Positions 2,241 to 35,246 of a stretch of 36,404 nucleotides of DNA are shown here, piece after piece; position 1 is the stretch's first letter, and each line of letters opens with the position of its first letter. The DNA comes from Lachnospiraceae oral taxon 107 str. F0167 (GTDB lineage Bacteria; Bacillota; Clostridia; Lachnospirales; Lachnospiraceae), in NCBI GenBank assembly GCA_000209465.1, contig GL890605.1:1-36404 (forward strand), written 5' to 3'. Both the position numbers and the translations under genes were made by a program. A model generated the notes under the pieces. The model was not told where the DNA came from, made no database searches, and worked only from the letters and a program-made list of their open reading frames with translations.

Positions 2241-2275
2241 GTCTAAATAAAAAGAAAGTAGTTAAATGATAGCTA

Positions 2276-2325
2276 TAAAAAGGGTAGCACGATTTAAAAT
2301 GAGTCACGCTACCCTAAGTTTTTAT
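2276..2325. terminator. Bidirectional terminator between convergent genes
   Basis: An 8-bp perfect stem AGGGTAGC (2281-2288) / GCTACCCT (2308-2315) is flanked by A-rich sequence on the left and TTTTT on the right. It can terminate the EVE/TPR unit on the plus strand and the lipoprotein gene on the minus strand. Confidence 0.8.
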
Positions 2326-2327
2326 AT

Positions 2328-3467
2328 TTAATGATTTTTAGATGCCAGTTCTTCTCTTACCATTCCATATTCTATTACATTTTCATTATTATCATATGTA
2401 AAGTATAGATAATCAGATAAACCGGAGGTTAGTCTATAATAATAAGTATCTGAGGTTTTTATTCTAGGTTCTCCAAGGTAGCCCACAACACGAGATTTAC
2501 TTAAAACTCCATTTTGCTCAGGTAATAATCCTATACTGAGTGGGAAAAACTGTTCATATATGATTTTTTTAAGTGGGCGAACTGAAATCTTTGTAACAGT
2601 TAATAGATTATCTTCAGTTTTTCCTTTTTCGAGCCTAAATGTTATAGTGCTATCTTCGGAAAGATATATATAATTATTTCCATTTTTTTCATTAGGTTCT
2701 TTATATCTTTTAATGAGCACTTCTTCTTCAGAACCAAGGACTACACCATTAAGGTGTATTCTATTGGCAAATATGGCGTTATCATGATCTAATAAAATAT
2801 CATAAAGGCTTTTATCTTCTCTAGCACCGGATATATCGCCTAAGTGCTTTGTAAAGTTTTCTCTTGCAAGTTCTAGAGTAAGTGGTTTTGAATCAAAAAA
2901 TTCCTCAGGTACAGAAATCTCATAATTTACATATGATATGGAATCATTGGCTATTATTAAAAGTAAAGCATTATTGTCAAGCCTTGGAAATATATATGGT
3001 GAAGAATACAAAGGATTTTCATCTATGCCGGGTGGTGTTAAATCAATATCATAAAGCCTGGATGCGATTGCACCTTCATAAAATTCATCATATTTGATTG
3101 TGATTGTCGAAGAGTCATTACTTAACTCCACATCACTAAGTTGTATATATTCAGCTATCTCAGGGAGTTTGCTGATGATATTTTTTAAGCTGTCCTTATC
3201 AGTCTTTTCATTAATAGTTAACTCATTTAAGTTTTCATATGGAAAATAGATACTTTCTGATATAGAAAGTTCATTATCTATTGAAGTTTGAGTTATATCA
3301 CTTTCAGCTGAAGTGGTAGGTTTTTCTTCTGTTGGAGTTTCTTGTGTTGCGAGAGATTCACTTTCCTGTGCAACAGAGGAGGTTTTACTCTCTTTGGATG
3401 ATGGGCATCCTGAAAGTGAAGATATTAAAAATGATAACAAGAATAAGGTAAATAGCTTCTTTTTCAT
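2328..3467 (-). CDS. Predicted lipoprotein of unknown function
   Basis: A 379-residue protein with a lipoprotein signal peptide: MKKK, a hydrophobic stretch (LFTLFLLSFLIS) and a lipobox S-L-S-G-C with the lipidated cysteine at residue 21. Residues ~22-70 are a Ser/Thr/Glu-rich linker typical of surface-tethered proteins; the rest is an acidic globular domain with many beta-like segments (e.g. SYVNYEISVPEEF and YYYRLTSGLSDYLYFTYD near the C-terminus) that I do not recognise. The start has a clear AAGGAG site 8-9 bases upstream. The gene lies downstream of, and on the same strand as, the ClpP/VirD4-like pair but is separated by a terminator, so it is probably its own unit. It should be anchored to the outer face of the membrane. 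Confidence 0.75.
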   Translation of the reverse strand: MKKKLFTLFLLSFLISSLSGCPSSKESKTSSVAQESESLATQETPTEEKPTTSAESDITQTSIDNELSISESIYFPYENLNELTINEKTDKDSLKNIISKLPEIAEYIQLSDVELSNDSSTITIKYDEFYEGAIASRLYDIDLTPPGIDENPLYSSPYIFPRLDNNALLLIIANDSISYVNYEISVPEEFFDSKPLTLELARENFTKHLGDISGAREDKSLYDILLDHDNAIFANRIHLNGVVLGSEEEVLIKRYKEPNEKNGNNYIYLSEDSTITFRLEKGKTEDNLLTVTKISVRPLKKIIYEQFFPLSIGLLPEQNGVLSKSRVVGYLGEPRIKTSDTYYYRLTSGLSDYLYFTYDNNENVIEYGMVREELASKNH

Positions 3468-3545
3468 CCTACATTCTCCTTAAAATATGTTTAAAGTTTA
3501 TTTTTTTAAATATTATCATTAAATACATGGCTTGTAAATATAGAG

Positions 3546-3585
3546 AAAAACTTCCAAACTGAGCATAAGTTCAGAAGTTTTTTTG
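3546..3585 (-). terminator. Terminator after the VirD4-like gene
   Basis: On the minus strand AAAAACTTC and GAAGTTTTT arms, with an inner AACT/AGTT pairing, enclose a short loop and end in a T-run. It lies between the VirD4-like stop (3601) and the lipoprotein start, and is nearly symmetrical. Confidence 0.7.
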
Positions 3586-3600
3586 GATTTATAGTATTTG

Positions 3601-4953
3601 TTAAACATTAATAATACAGCTGTCGTTTGATTTTTTAGCAATACGTTTAAGTTCTTTAATAAATGAATGCCTGTCCTTAATAACTATTTTATCAACATGT
3701 GAATCTTTAAATTTATTAGTAATTTCTTGATATTTTTTATTTTTAAAAACATTATATCTTTTGCAGAATATAGGTTTTAAACCACGCCTAAATATGATTT
3801 GGTTACCCAATTTCATGCTTAAACAATCTTCAGGCATTATACCGGCTCTGTCAGAAATGTTTTTTGCAGTAGCTAAATCATTTGATCCCATGTACACATA
3901 GGTATCACAATTATTGATAATAGTAGTAGAGCTTTGATATCCATATAGGGAAGATAGCTGAGACTCTGATTGTATTAGGAGAGTTACAGATATTCCTTTT
4001 TCTCTAAAAATGGAAATATATTGATCAAATAAAGGTACAGGACATCCTGTAGCAAAATCATCTGACAGGAAGTGTATAGGAATAGGAAGTACACCACTGT
4101 CTTGCATTTCTCCTATTTCAAAAAGTTCTTTAAAAGTATGGGCATAAAACATGTTTATAAAGCTGTTTAAAGAGGGGTTTACAGGGCTGCTTGTAATAAA
4201 TAATGCCGACTTTTCCTTTGTAAAATCATTGAAATTTACTCTATTTTTCATCTTAAACATTTTTCTAAGCTCAGGTGTAAATACAGTTGCAAGAGCAGTA
4301 TTTAAAAATGAAAATACACAACCAGCTGTTCTGACAGGTAATCTTTTAAAAGACATCCAGTTAACACTTGCCATATTTAATGGATTATATTTTTGTAAAA
4401 GCTCAAAGTCAGAGTCATAATTAGTCACTATAGTTCCATCTTTTTCACTATAACTAAGTTTGTCAACCATTTCCAATACATCAGAAAAGTCCGGATCATC
4501 ATACTCTATTAATATATAGGATATGATAGCTACAAATAAAGATGTAGCGGATTCATACCAGTAGGGGTCAAGATTCTTATTATTAGTCTCAACATTTGCT
4601 TGAACTATGGCTCTAGCAATAAATATTATATCTTGATAGCTTTTAATATAATTTAATGGATCATAAGATACATTACCATTTTCCGGATGTACAAAGTCAA
4701 GATCCCATACCTTGTACCCCCTATCCTCTAATAATGGTGTATACTTCTTTACAATTCTTCTTTTGGTTACACTTGTAATTATATTTCTATTATTTGATTC
4801 TAATAGGAAAGGTTCTGCTATAGAGACTGTCTTACCTGAGCCGGAGCCTCCTACGACCATTACATTGTTATTTATTCCGGTCACATTAGTATCAGAACTA
4901 AATATACAGTCCTTACCATCACCTAATACAACTCTGTCTGTTTTCCTATACAT
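3601..4953 (-). CDS. Divergent soluble VirD4/TraG-like (T4CP family) ATPase
   Basis: A 450-residue P-loop ATPase related to the cytosolic domain of conjugative coupling proteins (VirD4/TraG, CD1115-like). Visible marks: NNNVMVVGGSGSGKT with Walker A at residues 35-42; DPYWYESATSLF, matching the DPFWEKSE segment of the family; a Walker-B-like HFLSDDFA (D298-D299); the VTLLIQSESQL sensor segment; and a C-terminal IIFRRGLKPIFCKRY like the family's LFIRGxxP end. Oddities: there is no N-terminal transmembrane pair, and the usual DPKGE motif is replaced by ITSVTKRR. I chose ATG 4953 over ATG 4959 because GAGGAGG is 7 bases from the former and only 1 from the latter. This gives a TAATG overlap with the upstream ClpP-like gene. 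No relaxase or T4SS genes are nearby, so a conjugation role is doubtful. Confidence 0.75.
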   Translation of the reverse strand: MYRKTDRVVLGDGKDCIFSSDTNVTGINNNVMVVGGSGSGKTVSIAEPFLLESNNRNIITSVTKRRIVKKYTPLLEDRGYKVWDLDFVHPENGNVSYDPLNYIKSYQDIIFIARAIVQANVETNNKNLDPYWYESATSLFVAIISYILIEYDDPDFSDVLEMVDKLSYSEKDGTIVTNYDSDFELLQKYNPLNMASVNWMSFKRLPVRTAGCVFSFLNTALATVFTPELRKMFKMKNRVNFNDFTKEKSALFITSSPVNPSLNSFINMFYAHTFKELFEIGEMQDSGVLPIPIHFLSDDFATGCPVPLFDQYISIFREKGISVTLLIQSESQLSSLYGYQSSTTIINNCDTYVYMGSNDLATAKNISDRAGIMPEDCLSMKLGNQIIFRRGLKPIFCKRYNVFKNKKYQEITNKFKDSHVDKIVIKDRHSFIKELKRIAKKSNDSCIINV

Positions 4954-5558
4954 TACCATTCCTCCTCTTTTATTAAATCAATTATTTTTGCAAAATTAAT
5001 TACTTTATCACATAAGTTAAATCCTATCGCTTCATCAGGTAAAAAGTAATGATCAAAACTTGTTGCGATATCTATTTCCTCTTCAGTTTTACCGATATGT
5101 TTTGATAATAGTCCATTTAATTTTCTCTTGGTTTCAAGCATACTGTCAGAAATGTTCTTTATACTTGAAGCATTACCTGCTACATTTCCACCAAGTATAG
5201 GTTGATGTAACATTAGCTCACTGTTTGGAAGCATATATCGCTCATTTGCACAAGCAAAGAGTATGGCTCCCATGCTATATGCTCTTCCTCTACATACCAT
5301 TCTTATAGGTGCTTTTGAACCAACTATGGCATCATACATTAATAATCCACTATTGATTTCTCCACCAAGACTGTTTATAAGTATTGTAATAGGTCGATCT
5401 GATTCCAGATTTAATTCCAATATTTTATCTGTAAAATCAAGAGCTAAAATATCTGTTATATCACCATTTATATTGATACACCTTTTGTCAAAAAATCTTG
5501 TTTCCAGTGAAACCTGAGATATTCCACAGTTTGTTCTTAGTAATGTAGTAAAACTCAT
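4953..5558 (-). CDS. ClpP-like serine protease, active-site triad intact
   Basis: A 201-residue ClpP-fold peptidase. The triad can be read: Ser95 in GRAYSMGAIL (ClpP GxxASMGA), His118 in ELMLHQP (ClpP MIHQP) and Asp169 in SFDHYFLPDEA (ClpP RDxFLSAxEA). INSLGGEINSGLLMYDAI matches the oligomer-forming INSPGG region. Length is normal for ClpP. I use ATG 5558 because AAAGGAGG lies 5-6 bases upstream; the longer frame would add a hydrophobic leader from AT-rich promoter DNA. Sequence around the triad diverges from housekeeping ClpP (Ser-Leu-Gly-Gly for Ser-Pro-Gly-Gly), so this is probably a second, specialised copy. It is first in a two-gene unit with the VirD4-like ATPase, which may take the place of ClpX/ClpA; that is inference. 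Phage-type and SppA-like prohead proteases are the alternative. Confidence 0.85.
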   Translation of the reverse strand: MSFTTLLRTNCGISQVSLETRFFDKRCININGDITDILALDFTDKILELNLESDRPITILINSLGGEINSGLLMYDAIVGSKAPIRMVCRGRAYSMGAILFACANERYMLPNSELMLHQPILGGNVAGNASSIKNISDSMLETKRKLNGLLSKHIGKTEEEIDIATSFDHYFLPDEAIGFNLCDKVINFAKIIDLIKEEEW

Positions 5559-5769
5559 ACTACCTCCTTTATATTTGAAATTATTAATACTTGTTGATCC
5601 GGATTTAAGTATGCTTGGATTATAACATTTATATACATATATGTATATAAACAAGTAAAATAAAAATATAGACAAAATGAAAGCTTTTACTTGTAAAATA
5701 AAGAAAAGTAGTATATATTTAGATGTATATAAATAAAAAAATATACATAAATGAAAATGGAGTACAAAT
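5559..5769. promoter_or_regulatory. Shared divergent promoter region with a 24-bp perfect palindrome
   Basis: This very AT-rich spacer separates the ClpP-like gene (minus) from the 5770 gene (plus). Positions 5629-5652 form a perfect 24-bp palindrome, with half-site TTTATATACATA and its complement. Related half-sites (GTATATAAA and TATACATAAA) recur around 5722-5752. This looks like a dimer-bound operator array controlling both directions. Confidence 0.55.
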
Positions 5770-6525
5770 ATGTCAAAAAAAAGCGGGAATCACGAGTCAA
5801 CTGAAAGCAGAGCTTTCAAACTAACTGAATTAACAAAGTATTTAGTGAAAATGTATAAACTACCAACTGAAGACAAAGCCAGTCTGGATGAATGTAATGG
5901 TGATGGATTAAGAGGATATAGAAAACAAATAGAGAGAATTCTAAAAAACACCAAAGTAAATGGGAGGTCACTTTATGATATTTGCACACCGGTTGATGGT
6001 GGACCAAGAAAAATAAGTATTTCAGATTTTAATAAACATTGCTTTCTACAATGGTCAGATTATCTTAAAAATGGTAAAAATGAATATAATAAAGAAGTGT
6101 TAGAAAGAGAGAAAAAAATATATGAACGTGCGAAAATAATACAAGAAAATGCCGAGTATGATGATGTATATGATAATGAACCTGAAGATATATTTATATA
6201 TTCAGAGGAAGAATTAGAAAAACATGCTATGAAACTGATGATAGAGGGGATTTTTGAGGCAGTATGTGGAGAATTTGATTGGAGGAAATTAAAGTATGAT
6301 TTAGAAAATAAAGAATACTATTTACATCCATGGAATGTTGAAAAAATTTATCCGGAGGAATATTTTGATGGAAGTGAACTTTGGAATGAGGAAGATGGAA
6401 AGTACTATATTATTCCATATGAAAAATTGCGAGAAGAGGGTAGAAAGACAAGAGAGCCTTTAGAAAAATCAATGGAAAATCTAAAATCATATAAGAACTA
6501 TATAAAAGATAAGGATAATAAATAG
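5770..6525 (+). CDS. Unknown protein divergent from the clpP-like/VirD4-like pair
   Basis: A 251-residue soluble, strongly charged protein that I do not recognise. The N-terminal ~90 residues have helical character with basic patches (ESRAFKLTELTKYLVKMYKL; GLRGYRKQIERILKNTKVNGRSLYDI) and could be a DNA-binding or helical adaptor region. The middle (residues ~110-160) is a long charged helix, and the C-terminal third is acidic and Tyr/Trp-rich (DWRKLKYDLENKEYYLHPW). No signal peptide or membrane segment is seen. ATG 5770 has only a weak GGAG 8 bases upstream. The gene is transcribed away from the ClpP-like gene across the palindrome region and ends at its own terminator, so a regulator or substrate/adaptor of that pair is plausible but not shown. 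Confidence 0.6.
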   Translation: MSKKSGNHESTESRAFKLTELTKYLVKMYKLPTEDKASLDECNGDGLRGYRKQIERILKNTKVNGRSLYDICTPVDGGPRKISISDFNKHCFLQWSDYLKNGKNEYNKEVLEREKKIYERAKIIQENAEYDDVYDNEPEDIFIYSEEELEKHAMKLMIEGIFEAVCGEFDWRKLKYDLENKEYYLHPWNVEKIYPEEYFDGSELWNEEDGKYYIIPYEKLREEGRKTREPLEKSMENLKSYKNYIKDKDNK

Positions 6526-6544
6526 ACATCAAAAATAATAGTTT

Positions 6545-6577
6545 TAAAAAAGCCACCCCTTTTTGGGGTGGTCTTTA
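6545..6577. terminator. Bidirectional terminator
   Basis: CCACCCC (6553-6559) / GGGGTGG (6565-6571), a 7-bp GC-rich stem with a 5-T loop, flanked by AAAAAAG on the left and TCTTT on the right. It serves the 5770 gene on the plus strand and the lysozyme gene on the minus strand. Confidence 0.85.
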
Positions 6578-6588
6578 ATTTGATATTT

Positions 6589-33241: not shown

Positions 33242-33928
33242 TTGTTATACACATTAGATGAAATATTAAGATATGGGGATGTATTAAATATTATACAGGC
33301 GGATGAGACAGATAGAATTGTTGAAAGAAAAGATGTCCCGCTGTTTGATAAGGATGCCTTTAGAGAAGCAATAATTAATGCATTTTTACATAACAAGTGG
33401 ATAGAGATGAATGAACCTATGGTGACTATTTACTCTGATAGGATAGAAATTTTATCAAGGGGAACAATACCACAAGGGCAGACGGTAGAAGGCTTCTTTT
33501 TAGGTGAGTCCATTCCTGTTAATAAAAAATTATCTGAGATTTTTTTGCAACTGCATATCAGTGAGAAGACCAGTAGAGGCGTTCCTAAAATTACAGAGAA
33601 ATATGGAAAAGAAGCATTTGAATTTAGAGAAAATTCTATTATAGTAAAAATTCCTTTTAATTGGATTAATACTATGTATGATAAAGAGGGTAATAAAGAG
33701 GGTAATAAAGAGGGTAATAAAGGTATCGAGTATTCATATTTAAATGAGACACAGAAAATTATACTACAAGAAATAAAAAACAATCCCAATATTACCAAGA
33801 AACAGATTCAAGAAAAAATTGGTAAAGGAAAGACGGCAGTAGATAGGGGAATTGCCAATTTGAAAGAAAAAGGATATATAGAACATATAGGCTCAAATAG
33901 AGCCGGGTATTGGAAAATACTTATATAA
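33242..33928 (+). pseudogene. RecG-like/AlbA_2-HATPase regulator, 5'-truncated
   Basis: The remaining ~228 residues match the second half of the large family of putative regulators with an N-terminal AlbA_2 domain, a HATPase_c_4 domain and a C-terminal winged helix. Seen here: REAIINAFLHNKWIE (the N-box), DRIEILSRGTIPQGQ, FLQLHISEKTSRGVPKIT and a C-terminal winged helix (TQKIILQEIKNNPNITKKQIQEKIGKG). The expected ~230 N-terminal residues including AlbA_2 are missing and there is no start codon with a ribosome binding site; the frame begins only 18 bases after DUF2304. Probably a remnant of insertion or deletion. A linker of three 12-bp repeats (33683-33718) encodes the KEGN units. Confidence 0.7.
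33683..33718 (+). repeat. Three tandem 12-bp repeats (AAAGAGGGTAAT)
   Basis: Perfect units at 33683-33694, 33695-33706 and 33707-33718 encode Lys-Glu-Gly-Asn repeats between the HATPase part and the winged helix. Unit changes would keep the frame. Confidence 0.95.
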
Positions 33929-34086
33929 AATTGTTTCATTTTTCAATAAAACCCGGATAATTACTATATTAAAATGAGTAGATTTTTTTGCCTATTAAGT
34001 GAATAAAAAAGAAGTTTATTATTACGTATTCCTACAAAATTTCCGCAAAGGATGCTGCAAAAAGCTAATATAAGTATAAGCAATTT

Positions 34087-34112
34087 GGACACCATAAAAG
34101 GTGTCCTTTTTT
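34087..34112 (+). terminator. Terminator in the gap before the WYL gene
   Basis: GGACACC (34087-34093) / GGTGTCC (34100-34106), a 7-bp stem with a 6-base loop, followed by TTTTTT. The remainder of the 358-base gap (33929-34286) is AT-rich; a TATAAT at 34169-34174 may be the -10 box of the next gene, but no -35 box is clear. Confidence 0.85.
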
Positions 34113-34286
34113 CGTAAGAAAATAGCCGGAATCTTAATTTTATAGATGAAAAATATTAATAAATTTGTTATAATCAGGTGGTGTTACAAGTTTATTAATA
34201 ATACACATGAAATTATATAATTAAATTTTTAAAATGACATATTTTGTCTATGTGAGATTGTATATTGGAGGCATAGGAGATGAGAA

Positions 34287-35246
34287 ATGAAAAGTGAAGG
34301 GATGGATAAGTCAACACGATTGCTTATGATATATTCTAAGCTCGTGAAGGGTTATATAGTAAATAAAAGTGAAGAAGCGGCAAACTTTAATGTGGATGAA
34401 AGAACCATACAAAGAGATATTGCTTCTATAAAAGAGTATATGGGTTCCGATATAACGAATAATGGTATTATAAATTCAATAATATATGATAAAGCTGCAG
34501 GGGGATATAGGGTGGAATCATCTTATACAGGAACTTTGTCAAACAGTGAGACACTGGCGGTGTGTAAAGTATTATTGGATAGCAGAGCTTTTCCTAAGGA
34601 TGAAATGAAAGAGATACTTGATAAGCTCATAAGCTGCTGCGTACCTAAAGAGAACAGACAGCCGGTGAAAGAGCTGATAGGAAATGAAGAACATCATTAT
34701 ATAGAACTGAGACATAAAACCAACTTCCTTGAAACATTGTGGGATCTCGGTCAGGCAATAAGAAGCTGTAAATATGTGGAAATAGAATACAGGAGAACCA
34801 AGGATAAGGCGATTGTAAAAAGAAAAATAAAGCCTGTAGGAATAATGTTCTCAGAATACTACTTTTATATAACCGCATTTATAGATGATAAGGAAGTTCT
34901 GGAAAACTTTGATGTAATAAATGACGCCTTCCCCACAATATACCGAGTGGATAGAATTGTAAGTTACAAATTGCTTGAAGAGCGATTTAAAATGCCCTAC
35001 AAAGACAGATTTGAAGAGGGCGAATTCAGAAAAAGAGTCCAGTTTATGTATGGCGGAAAGCTGAACAGAATCCGCTTTGAATATACAGGCACCGATGTGG
35101 ATGCAATCCTAGACCGCCTACCCACAGCAAAGATAGAAAGCGAAAAGGATGGTAAGTATATTATTAAGGCAGAAGTGTTTGGAAAGGGAATTGATATGTG
35201 GCTAAGGAGTCAGGGGGAGAATGTAAGGGTGCTAGGGGGAAAGTAA
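34287..35246 (+). CDS. WYL-domain transcriptional regulator
   Basis: A 319-residue regulator: an N-terminal winged helix (residues ~8-60, with NVDERTIQRDIASIKEY), a WYL domain (~145-230, with VEIEYRRTKDKAIVKRKIKPVGIMFSEYYFYITAF; the signature W-Y-L is Y-F-Y here) and a C-terminal WCX extension (about 245-319). WYL proteins bind nucleic-acid or nucleotide ligands and often control defence, DNA repair or accessory loci. GGAG lies 8 bases before ATG 34287. A long leader (~110 bases) lies downstream of a possible -10 box. It does not obviously control a neighbour; the Sel1-repeat gene begins 72 bases after it. Confidence 0.9.
   Translation: MKSEGMDKSTRLLMIYSKLVKGYIVNKSEEAANFNVDERTIQRDIASIKEYMGSDITNNGIINSIIYDKAAGGYRVESSYTGTLSNSETLAVCKVLLDSRAFPKDEMKEILDKLISCCVPKENRQPVKELIGNEEHHYIELRHKTNFLETLWDLGQAIRSCKYVEIEYRRTKDKAIVKRKIKPVGIMFSEYYFYITAFIDDKEVLENFDVINDAFPTIYRVDRIVSYKLLEERFKMPYKDRFEEGEFRKRVQFMYGGKLNRIRFEYTGTDVDAILDRLPTAKIESEKDGKYIIKAEVFGKGIDMWLRSQGENVRVLGGK

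Follow-up and report, generated by a model that had tools for sequence, protein, structure and literature searches.

The clpP-ATPase locus and its conservation

The window analysed here, by which we mean the whole stretch of 36,404 nucleotides from Lachnospiraceae oral taxon 107 str. F0167 (assembly GCA_000209465.1, contig GL890605.1; its source is hereafter called the own genome), encodes a ClpP-like protease and a soluble P-loop ATPase of the VirD4/TraG type, whose genes are joined by an overlapping stop and start codon (Table 1). The original prediction for this DNA had described a ClpP-like gene with a Ser95/His118/Asp169 triad, as well as its TAATG overlap with a gene for an ATPase of the coupling-protein family. 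Both descriptions were borne out, the former by translation, Pfam and an alignment of 14 family members in which the triad is invariant, and the latter by the minus-strand sequence and Pfam.

The clpP-like gene is preceded by a ribosome-binding site, AAAGGAGG, and its product was modelled as a single chain with AlphaFold2 at a predicted local distance difference test (pLDDT) score of 92.9, with ClpP from Staphylococcus aureus as the top Foldseek match (6tty, TMq 0.85). The ATPase, for which a second possible in-frame ATG lies at 4959, has an intact Walker A motif (G35-T42) and a Walker B motif at D298-D299; the helices of its model suggest an all-alpha insertion at roughly residues 99-232. A promoter-like site upstream and a strong terminator downstream likely frame a two-gene operon. 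The terminator fold has a z of -4.0 and was equalled in stability by none of 200 shuffles, and promoter-like sites in the region are no commoner than in shuffled sequence (27 found, shuffle mean 25.6).

Table 1. Features of the clpP-ATPase locus in the window.
Feature	Positions	Strand	Basis
clpP-like gene, 201 residues (P0001)	4953..5558	-	translation; Pfam CLP_protease E 3.9e-36
Soluble VirD4/TraG-type P-loop ATPase, 450 residues (P0002)	3601..4953	-	Pfam T4SS-DNA_transf E 1.4e-35, TraG-D_C E 1.4e-18
TAATG stop/start overlap joining clpP and ATPase genes	4951..4955	-	sequence
Sigma-70 promoter-like site ahead of clpP, TATACA-17-TATAAT, TG before second hexamer	5619..5647	-	
Intrinsic terminator 3' of ATPase gene	3546..3582	-	15-pair stem, -13.8 kcal/mol
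Variable segment, about 4.3 kb (ends approximate)	2241..6588		comparison of the window with syntenic regions from 5 congeners by blastn, tblastn and open reading frames

The pair is conserved. The own genome holds a second intact copy on another contig (C7), in the same order and 71%/75% identical to the window pair; its housekeeping ClpP, by comparison, is 34% identical to the window ClpP. We then drew on samples of 250 genomes of the family, 391 of the class and 348 of the phylum, plus genus members, in which part of the candidates per genome was scored (e.g. 6 of 12), so that further copies could be missed. First, in the 250 family genomes the ATPase search (E up to 1e-60) gave 14 matches in 12 genomes, and a separate ClpP search (E up to 1e-40) gave 13 matches in 11 genomes. 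All 13 of these ClpPs adjoin an ATPase match, one of them (G039) with a small predicted open reading frame (ORF) in between, and immediately upstream of the fourteenth ATPase (G213) lies a ClpP that is more divergent. Second, the six ATPases found outside the family in the class and phylum samples (four in G389/G611 and two in G659/G939) all adjoin a ClpP; the class-sample ClpP search at E 1e-36 returned the own genome only, at a threshold that the divergent ClpPs of these remote pairs do not reach. Third, within the genus the ATPase is present in five of six species, and the three newly found loci hold both genes. Overall, each of the 23 family ATPases that passed the E-value cut-offs in the sampled whole genomes lies beside a ClpP.

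A scan of named genomes with the ATPase, from which the best 80 of 256 related loci were kept (all counts out of 80 rest on these), gave a neighbouring ClpP at 70 loci, 69 of them full-length and one a 60-residue fragment (L059); a small predicted ORF separates the two genes at L124. The two sets of genomes overlap (e.g. L034/L048, L035/L058, L036/L088, L037/L093), and 23/23 and 70/80 are thus not independent. Gene order is reversed at six of the 70 paired loci, which means that neighbourhood, rather than order, is conserved. As controls, none of the four coupling proteins with a membrane anchor in the own genome has a ClpP within the 16-20 kb examined for each, and neither has any of 15 viral-contig homologues in the stretch examined, several of these being cut by contig ends. 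Conservation of the pair far exceeds chance. It extends to cultured oral and gut bacteria, namely, Lachnoanaerobaculum, Frisingicoccus, Fusicatenibacter and Selenomonas ruminantium.

For comparisons between the two partners we assembled 78 pairs, that is, 68 of the 69 full pairs from the named-genome loci (L061 was left out because a contig end cuts its ATPase) and 10 others. The ATPase and ClpP distance matrices of these pairs correlate with an r of 0.78, the highest of 1000 permutations being 0.30, a correlation that was calculated without a host tree and includes shared ancestry. Moreover, both genes are under purifying selection in the genome pairs for which dS was estimable, six of nine tried, the other three being saturated; the ratio of nonsynonymous to synonymous substitution rates (dN/dS) there is 0.04-0.20 for either gene.

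A coupling-protein ATPase without anchor and a ClpP with an altered pocket

The ATPase has the domain composition of a coupling protein, a nucleotide-binding domain with TraG-D_C and an all-alpha domain, according to Pfam, the model (pLDDT 91.2) and Foldseek, where Cagbeta came first (8dol, TMq 0.73), then TrwB-deltaN70 (about 0.6) and then HerA of anti-phage complexes (8xav, 0.56). Its closest NCBIfam model is conju_CD1115, a conjugative VirD4 family, at 230 bits and thus under the curated cut-off of 250. The ATPase shares with VirD4, TraG, TrwB and Cagbeta, including the CD1115 family, the nucleotide-binding and all-alpha fold, the Walker motifs and TraG-D_C; in contrast to them, it has no visible anchor, is roughly 120-170 residues shorter and carries DD rather than DE as Walker B. 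Among 80 homologues, no membrane segment was found within the N-terminal 80 residues (top 19-residue hydropathy 1.31), whereas the four anchored coupling proteins of the own genome reach 2.16-2.65 over 19 residues within their N-terminal 120. The difference in Walker B is complete, with DD in 61 of 61 soluble ATPases versus DE in 10 of 10 anchored ones. The tree, which drew on 46 of the 80 genome loci, sets the soluble ATPases (62 rows, some of them long) apart from the 10 anchored proteins by a branch with SH-aLRT support of 100 and a length of 1.36. Structure alignments took in 62 ATPases and 54 ClpPs. Taken together, the ATPase is a soluble motor of coupling-protein fold, presumably a ring, without the membrane anchor.

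Given this kinship, we asked whether the pair might be left over from conjugative elements or carried by them as cargo, with incidental adjacency. The nearest NCBIfam model is a conjugative one and the family is coupling-protein-like, yet we regard this explanation as scarcely credible, and an integrative and conjugative element or plasmid remnant was rejected as a candidate on the following grounds. First, we compared 14 proteins from the conjugative regions of the own genome with the 80 loci (tblastn, E 1e-4). The four coupling proteins match 79-80 loci each, because they are relatives of the ATPase, and a reverse transcriptase matches one locus. Three VirB4-type (P-loop_TraG) proteins, one relaxase and five others match none, in a test that covered this one relaxase type and flanks of up to about 6 kb; blastp with our own gene calls agrees with this outcome. 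Second, all matches to the ATPase in a plasmid collection are below 60% identity, and the 25 listed are at most 27% identical, most of them with a CD1115 conjugal protein annotation. Third, the soluble clade stands apart, and no type IV secretion system (T4SS) genes were found around the ATPase. The absence of a relaxase, VirB4 or integrase nearby, as originally predicted, is consistent with Pfam scans, which took in 28 proteins of the window; these come from 47 ORFs of at least 100 residues, overlapping antisense ORFs included, so that some small genes lie outside the scan. Thus, the expectation that the two genes would stay adjacent outside conjugative elements holds, both in the sampled (23/23) and in the named genomes (70/80). 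A phage element was likewise rejected: the ATPase has 15 distant viral-contig matches (23-33% identity), none with a ClpP in the stretch examined, and the 15 phage ClpP matches listed are at most 37% identical.

The ClpP partner retains its active site, with the catalytic Ser and His in 78 of the 78 family ClpPs and the Asp in 72. Its docking surface, however, differs from that of housekeeping ClpPs, for which our comparison set comprised 12 of 14 candidates (L167 and L168 were excluded as divergent). Position F82 of the pocket (E. coli numbering) is aromatic in 11 of 12 housekeeping ClpPs versus none of the 78 family members; Y62 is Tyr in 12/12 versus 17/78, and the window ClpP has L and G at Y62 and F82, respectively. 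Outside these two positions, E14 is present in 12/12 versus 0/78, and the Arg preceding the catalytic Asp, the ring-contact Arg (R170 in E. coli) of the tetradecamer of two heptamer rings, in 12/12 versus 1/78. Y60 is not aromatic in the compared housekeeping ClpPs either. As described in an earlier study, Y62 and F82 belong to the ClpP pocket that receives LGF loops and acyldepsipeptides (ADEPs), and mutation at Y62 and F82 of Bacillus subtilis ClpP greatly diminished caseinolysis (PMC11005422). On the side of the ATPase, no IGF/LGF-type tripeptide is common to the family: [ILVM]GF occurs anywhere in 7 of 78 sequences, and the looser [ILVM]G[FLY] falls at one alignment column in 20 of 78. No C-terminal docking motif shared across the ATPases was found. 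The remodelled pocket fits a ClpP adapted to a motor other than ClpX, ClpA or ClpC.

These substitutions also bear on the idea that this ClpP serves the housekeeping ClpX/ClpC system as a spare subunit, perhaps in mixture with the normal ClpP. Such a subunit would have the fold seen here, which is the same as that of S. aureus ClpP, and a partly kept pocket, and housekeeping-type ClpPs are present both in the own genome and in ten genomes searched. We nevertheless find it very improbable, since the F82 aromatic and E14 are lost in all 78 family members, with the Arg before the Asp kept in one and Y62 in 17.

A candidate two-component ATP-dependent protease

We propose that the pair is probably a dedicated two-component ATP-dependent compartmental protease, in which a ring motor of the VirD4/HerA class takes the place of an AAA+ unfoldase. 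We lean, if somewhat less firmly, towards a mechanism in which a coupling-protein motor of the VirD4/FtsK-HerA superfamily unfolds proteins and feeds them to its co-evolved ClpP, so that a DNA/effector export pump would have had its exit diverted from the membrane into a chamber for degradation. ClpP would form the usual closed proteolytic barrel, capped by the anchor-free ATPase ring instead of ClpX, ClpA or ClpC, presumably as a hexamer docked on a heptamer. By analogy with Cagbeta and TrwB, the all-alpha domain would be the entry point for the substrate, which would be drawn in unfolded form through the nucleotide-binding ring; its exit, on the face turned towards the membrane in coupling proteins, would lead directly into ClpP. 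An adjacent YbjN-like protein, where there is one (see below), may serve as a substrate adaptor. According to a structural study, coupling proteins with the Cagbeta fold form hexamers, whose channel suits only unfolded chains (PMC9886983). The original prediction had suggested that a VirD4/FtsK-class ATPase might stand where ClpP normally has its unfoldase; the conserved pairing, the non-AAA+ nature of the partner and the remodelled pocket speak for it, and the part of the claim in which the ATPase acts as the unfoldase we infer.

Several observations weigh against this proposal. First, ten of the 80 ATPase loci have no neighbouring ClpP. Four of them lie at contig ends, with L067 and L096 beginning too near one and L121 and L125 breaking off within the ATPase. 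In a whole-genome search, the genomes of L100, L113, L121 and L125 were found to hold a family-like ClpP elsewhere (273-341 bits; G971, G972, G974, G975), and three of these four ClpPs have an ATPase beside them, which is a further full one at L153 and L154 and one cut by a contig end at L156; the fourth, at L169, lies in a larger cluster with a second, TraG-like ATPase (see below). In the other six of the ten genomes, no ClpP scores above the housekeeping-like range (168-185 bits), and L094, L095, L099 and L118 are explained neither by a contig end nor by a ClpP elsewhere. Second, the catalytic Asp of ClpP is replaced by N in L074, L077, L085, L145 and L147 and by G in L089 (6/78), and other pocket positions are largely retained, L114 in 69/78 and an aromatic residue at F112 in 65/78, with I90 changed to F or Y in 55/78; we thus speak of a pocket that is remodelled and not erased. 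Third, DD instead of DE in Walker B could mean slow hydrolysis, and 3 of the 80 ATPases carry an internal hydrophobic stretch above 1.6. Finally, shared ancestry contributes to the distance correlation reported above, and no ClpP-ATPase fusion was noticed, no dedicated search having been run.

The four ATPases for which no family ClpP was detected (L094, L095, L099 and L118) would be expected if the ATPase moved proteins or DNA alone and ClpP were a clean-up protease acting independently, with only the operon in common. We consider this improbable, given that adjacency survives both gene-order reversal and wide divergence and that ClpP has changed its own docking pocket.

The main rival to the proposed protease, which we nonetheless judge unlikely, is a HerA-like sensor and effector, in which the ring ATPase would bind DNA or some other cue and gate a ClpP that degrades cell proteins, in anti-phage defence or abortive infection, with no need for unfolding. 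Such a system would agree with the fold matches that follow the coupling proteins, which are HerA proteins, including the anti-phage complexes 8xav and HerA-DUF (9c1m), with the scattered distribution of the pair (12 of 250 family genomes) and with the defence genes found near some pairs. The second copy in the own genome (L033 9356-19900, on C7) has a type I-B cas operon encoding Cas6b, Cas8b, Cas7b and Cas5b some 4 kb away, and a congener (L034) shows the same gene order; a Cas10/Cas10d-like protein is found near the pair at L117, and at L056:9864-13263, downstream of a pair, lie a fusion of Cas2 with a reverse transcriptase and a short CRISPR array. For a broader view, 115 of 138 neighbours were scanned with Pfam and PADLOC (25 of 107 and 25 of 31 families listed, respectively), and among the matches listed there are up to 3/115 with CARF-HEPN models and single ones with mad2, mad3, mad6 and PD-T4-6. 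Against this rival, no neighbour family is common, YbjN being the most frequent Pfam family among the diverse immediate neighbours with 4/115 in the matches listed, and linkage to CRISPR arrays was rejected, since our in-house finder, run without a control, detected arrays within the flanks of 2 of the 80 loci. No PADLOC model matched ClpP at E up to 0.001, and the ATPase gave a weak match to mad8 only (3.5e-4). As to HerA membership, Pfam and NCBIfam put the ATPase with coupling proteins, and HerA is the weaker match, in fold only. Because arrays are rare and the defence-gene counts have no background rate to be compared with, we treat a defence role as no more than a possibility. Support for an inter-bacterial role was not noticed, no direct test having been made.

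With ClpXP, ClpAP and ClpCP the proposed protease would share the ClpP fold, the catalytic triad, the N-terminal strands and a presumed hexameric ATP-driven partner; it differs in that the partner is not AAA+ but a T4SS-DNA_transf protein, from a motor family without a shared I/LGF motif, and in the changes of ClpP at F82, Y62 and E14. HslUV, FtsH, Lon and the proteasome with PAN also perform ATP-dependent compartmental proteolysis with two parts or a fused one, but all of them use AAA+ motors. The effectors of the HerA-SIR2 and HerA-DUF4297 anti-phage complexes are enzymes that form a ring or barrel, and those complexes resemble the pair in that a ring of the FtsK-HerA superfamily is encoded beside an enzyme; here, however, the enzyme is a ClpP protease, the ATPase lies on the coupling-protein branch rather than with HerA, and a role in defence is putative.

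To our knowledge, all characterised compartmental proteases have AAA+ motors, and we know of no protease that uses ClpP with a non-AAA+ motor. A search of the open-access literature in PMC, with subscription papers and preprints outside its scope, found no description of a ClpP and VirD4-like ATPase pair. It is plausible that the pair, while belonging with the ATP-dependent compartmental proteases, makes the case for a new class. If so, a second motor superfamily would have been recruited for regulated proteolysis. Moreover, a soluble ring of this type coupled to ClpP would offer a direct read-out, since breakdown of a stable folded reporter would be proof that this class of motor unfolds proteins, and the occurrence of the pair in cultured bacteria makes it testable. 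A ClpP driven by such a ring would also bear on type IV secretion, in which conjugative substrates must be unfolded by an enzyme that has been called unclear (PMC5826034).

Gene neighbourhood and related arrangements

A conserved third gene was rejected, since only two neighbours recur. First, a YbjN-like gene lies directly upstream of the pair, within 83 nucleotides, at 12 of the 80 loci, among them L058:4353-4940, L064:4736-5413 and 10 further loci, one of the 12 being a short fragment. Pfam support for the single proteins is weak or none, and a more divergent YbjN-like neighbour (L037) weakly matches CesT_Tir_1, a model of type III secretion chaperones. Second, a small Xre regulator recurs in 5 of 14 loci, not counting the long ORFs of L046-L049 caught by the Xre profile.

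In the window, the pair lies within the variable segment of Table 1, together with a lipoprotein gene (2328-3467) and a gene for a protein of 251 residues (5770-6525). In a sister species (L187), about 60 bp separate the two flanking genes, and the segment is missing from this position. In another (L183:7925-8024), a 103-bp stretch is 79% identical to window positions 3857-3959, inside the ATPase gene, and sits between a differently placed lipoprotein gene and an Xre gene; the similarity suggests a decayed copy or remnant of the ATPase gene.

Other arrangements were also recorded. A larger cluster at L169:4185-9570 encodes an Xre-like regulator, a soluble ATPase, a protein of 250 residues, a TraG-like ATPase of 694 residues and ClpP. 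At L118:5821-9278, in a metagenome-assembled genome labelled Abditibacteriota, there are tandem ATPases without ClpP. At L170:9209-12027, a still more divergent ClpP (L167) lies near a VirD4-like ATPase of 454 residues, with one ORF in between, an arrangement by which the pairing may extend beyond this family. Finally, a large protein of about 830-1100 residues, in some cases cut by contig ends, is encoded near the pairs at L063, L064, L073, L086, L111, L117 and L171, and the copies at L064 and L171 match WYL models; in the window itself, positions 33242-35246 encode a HATPase_c_4/winged-helix protein and then a WYL-domain protein.

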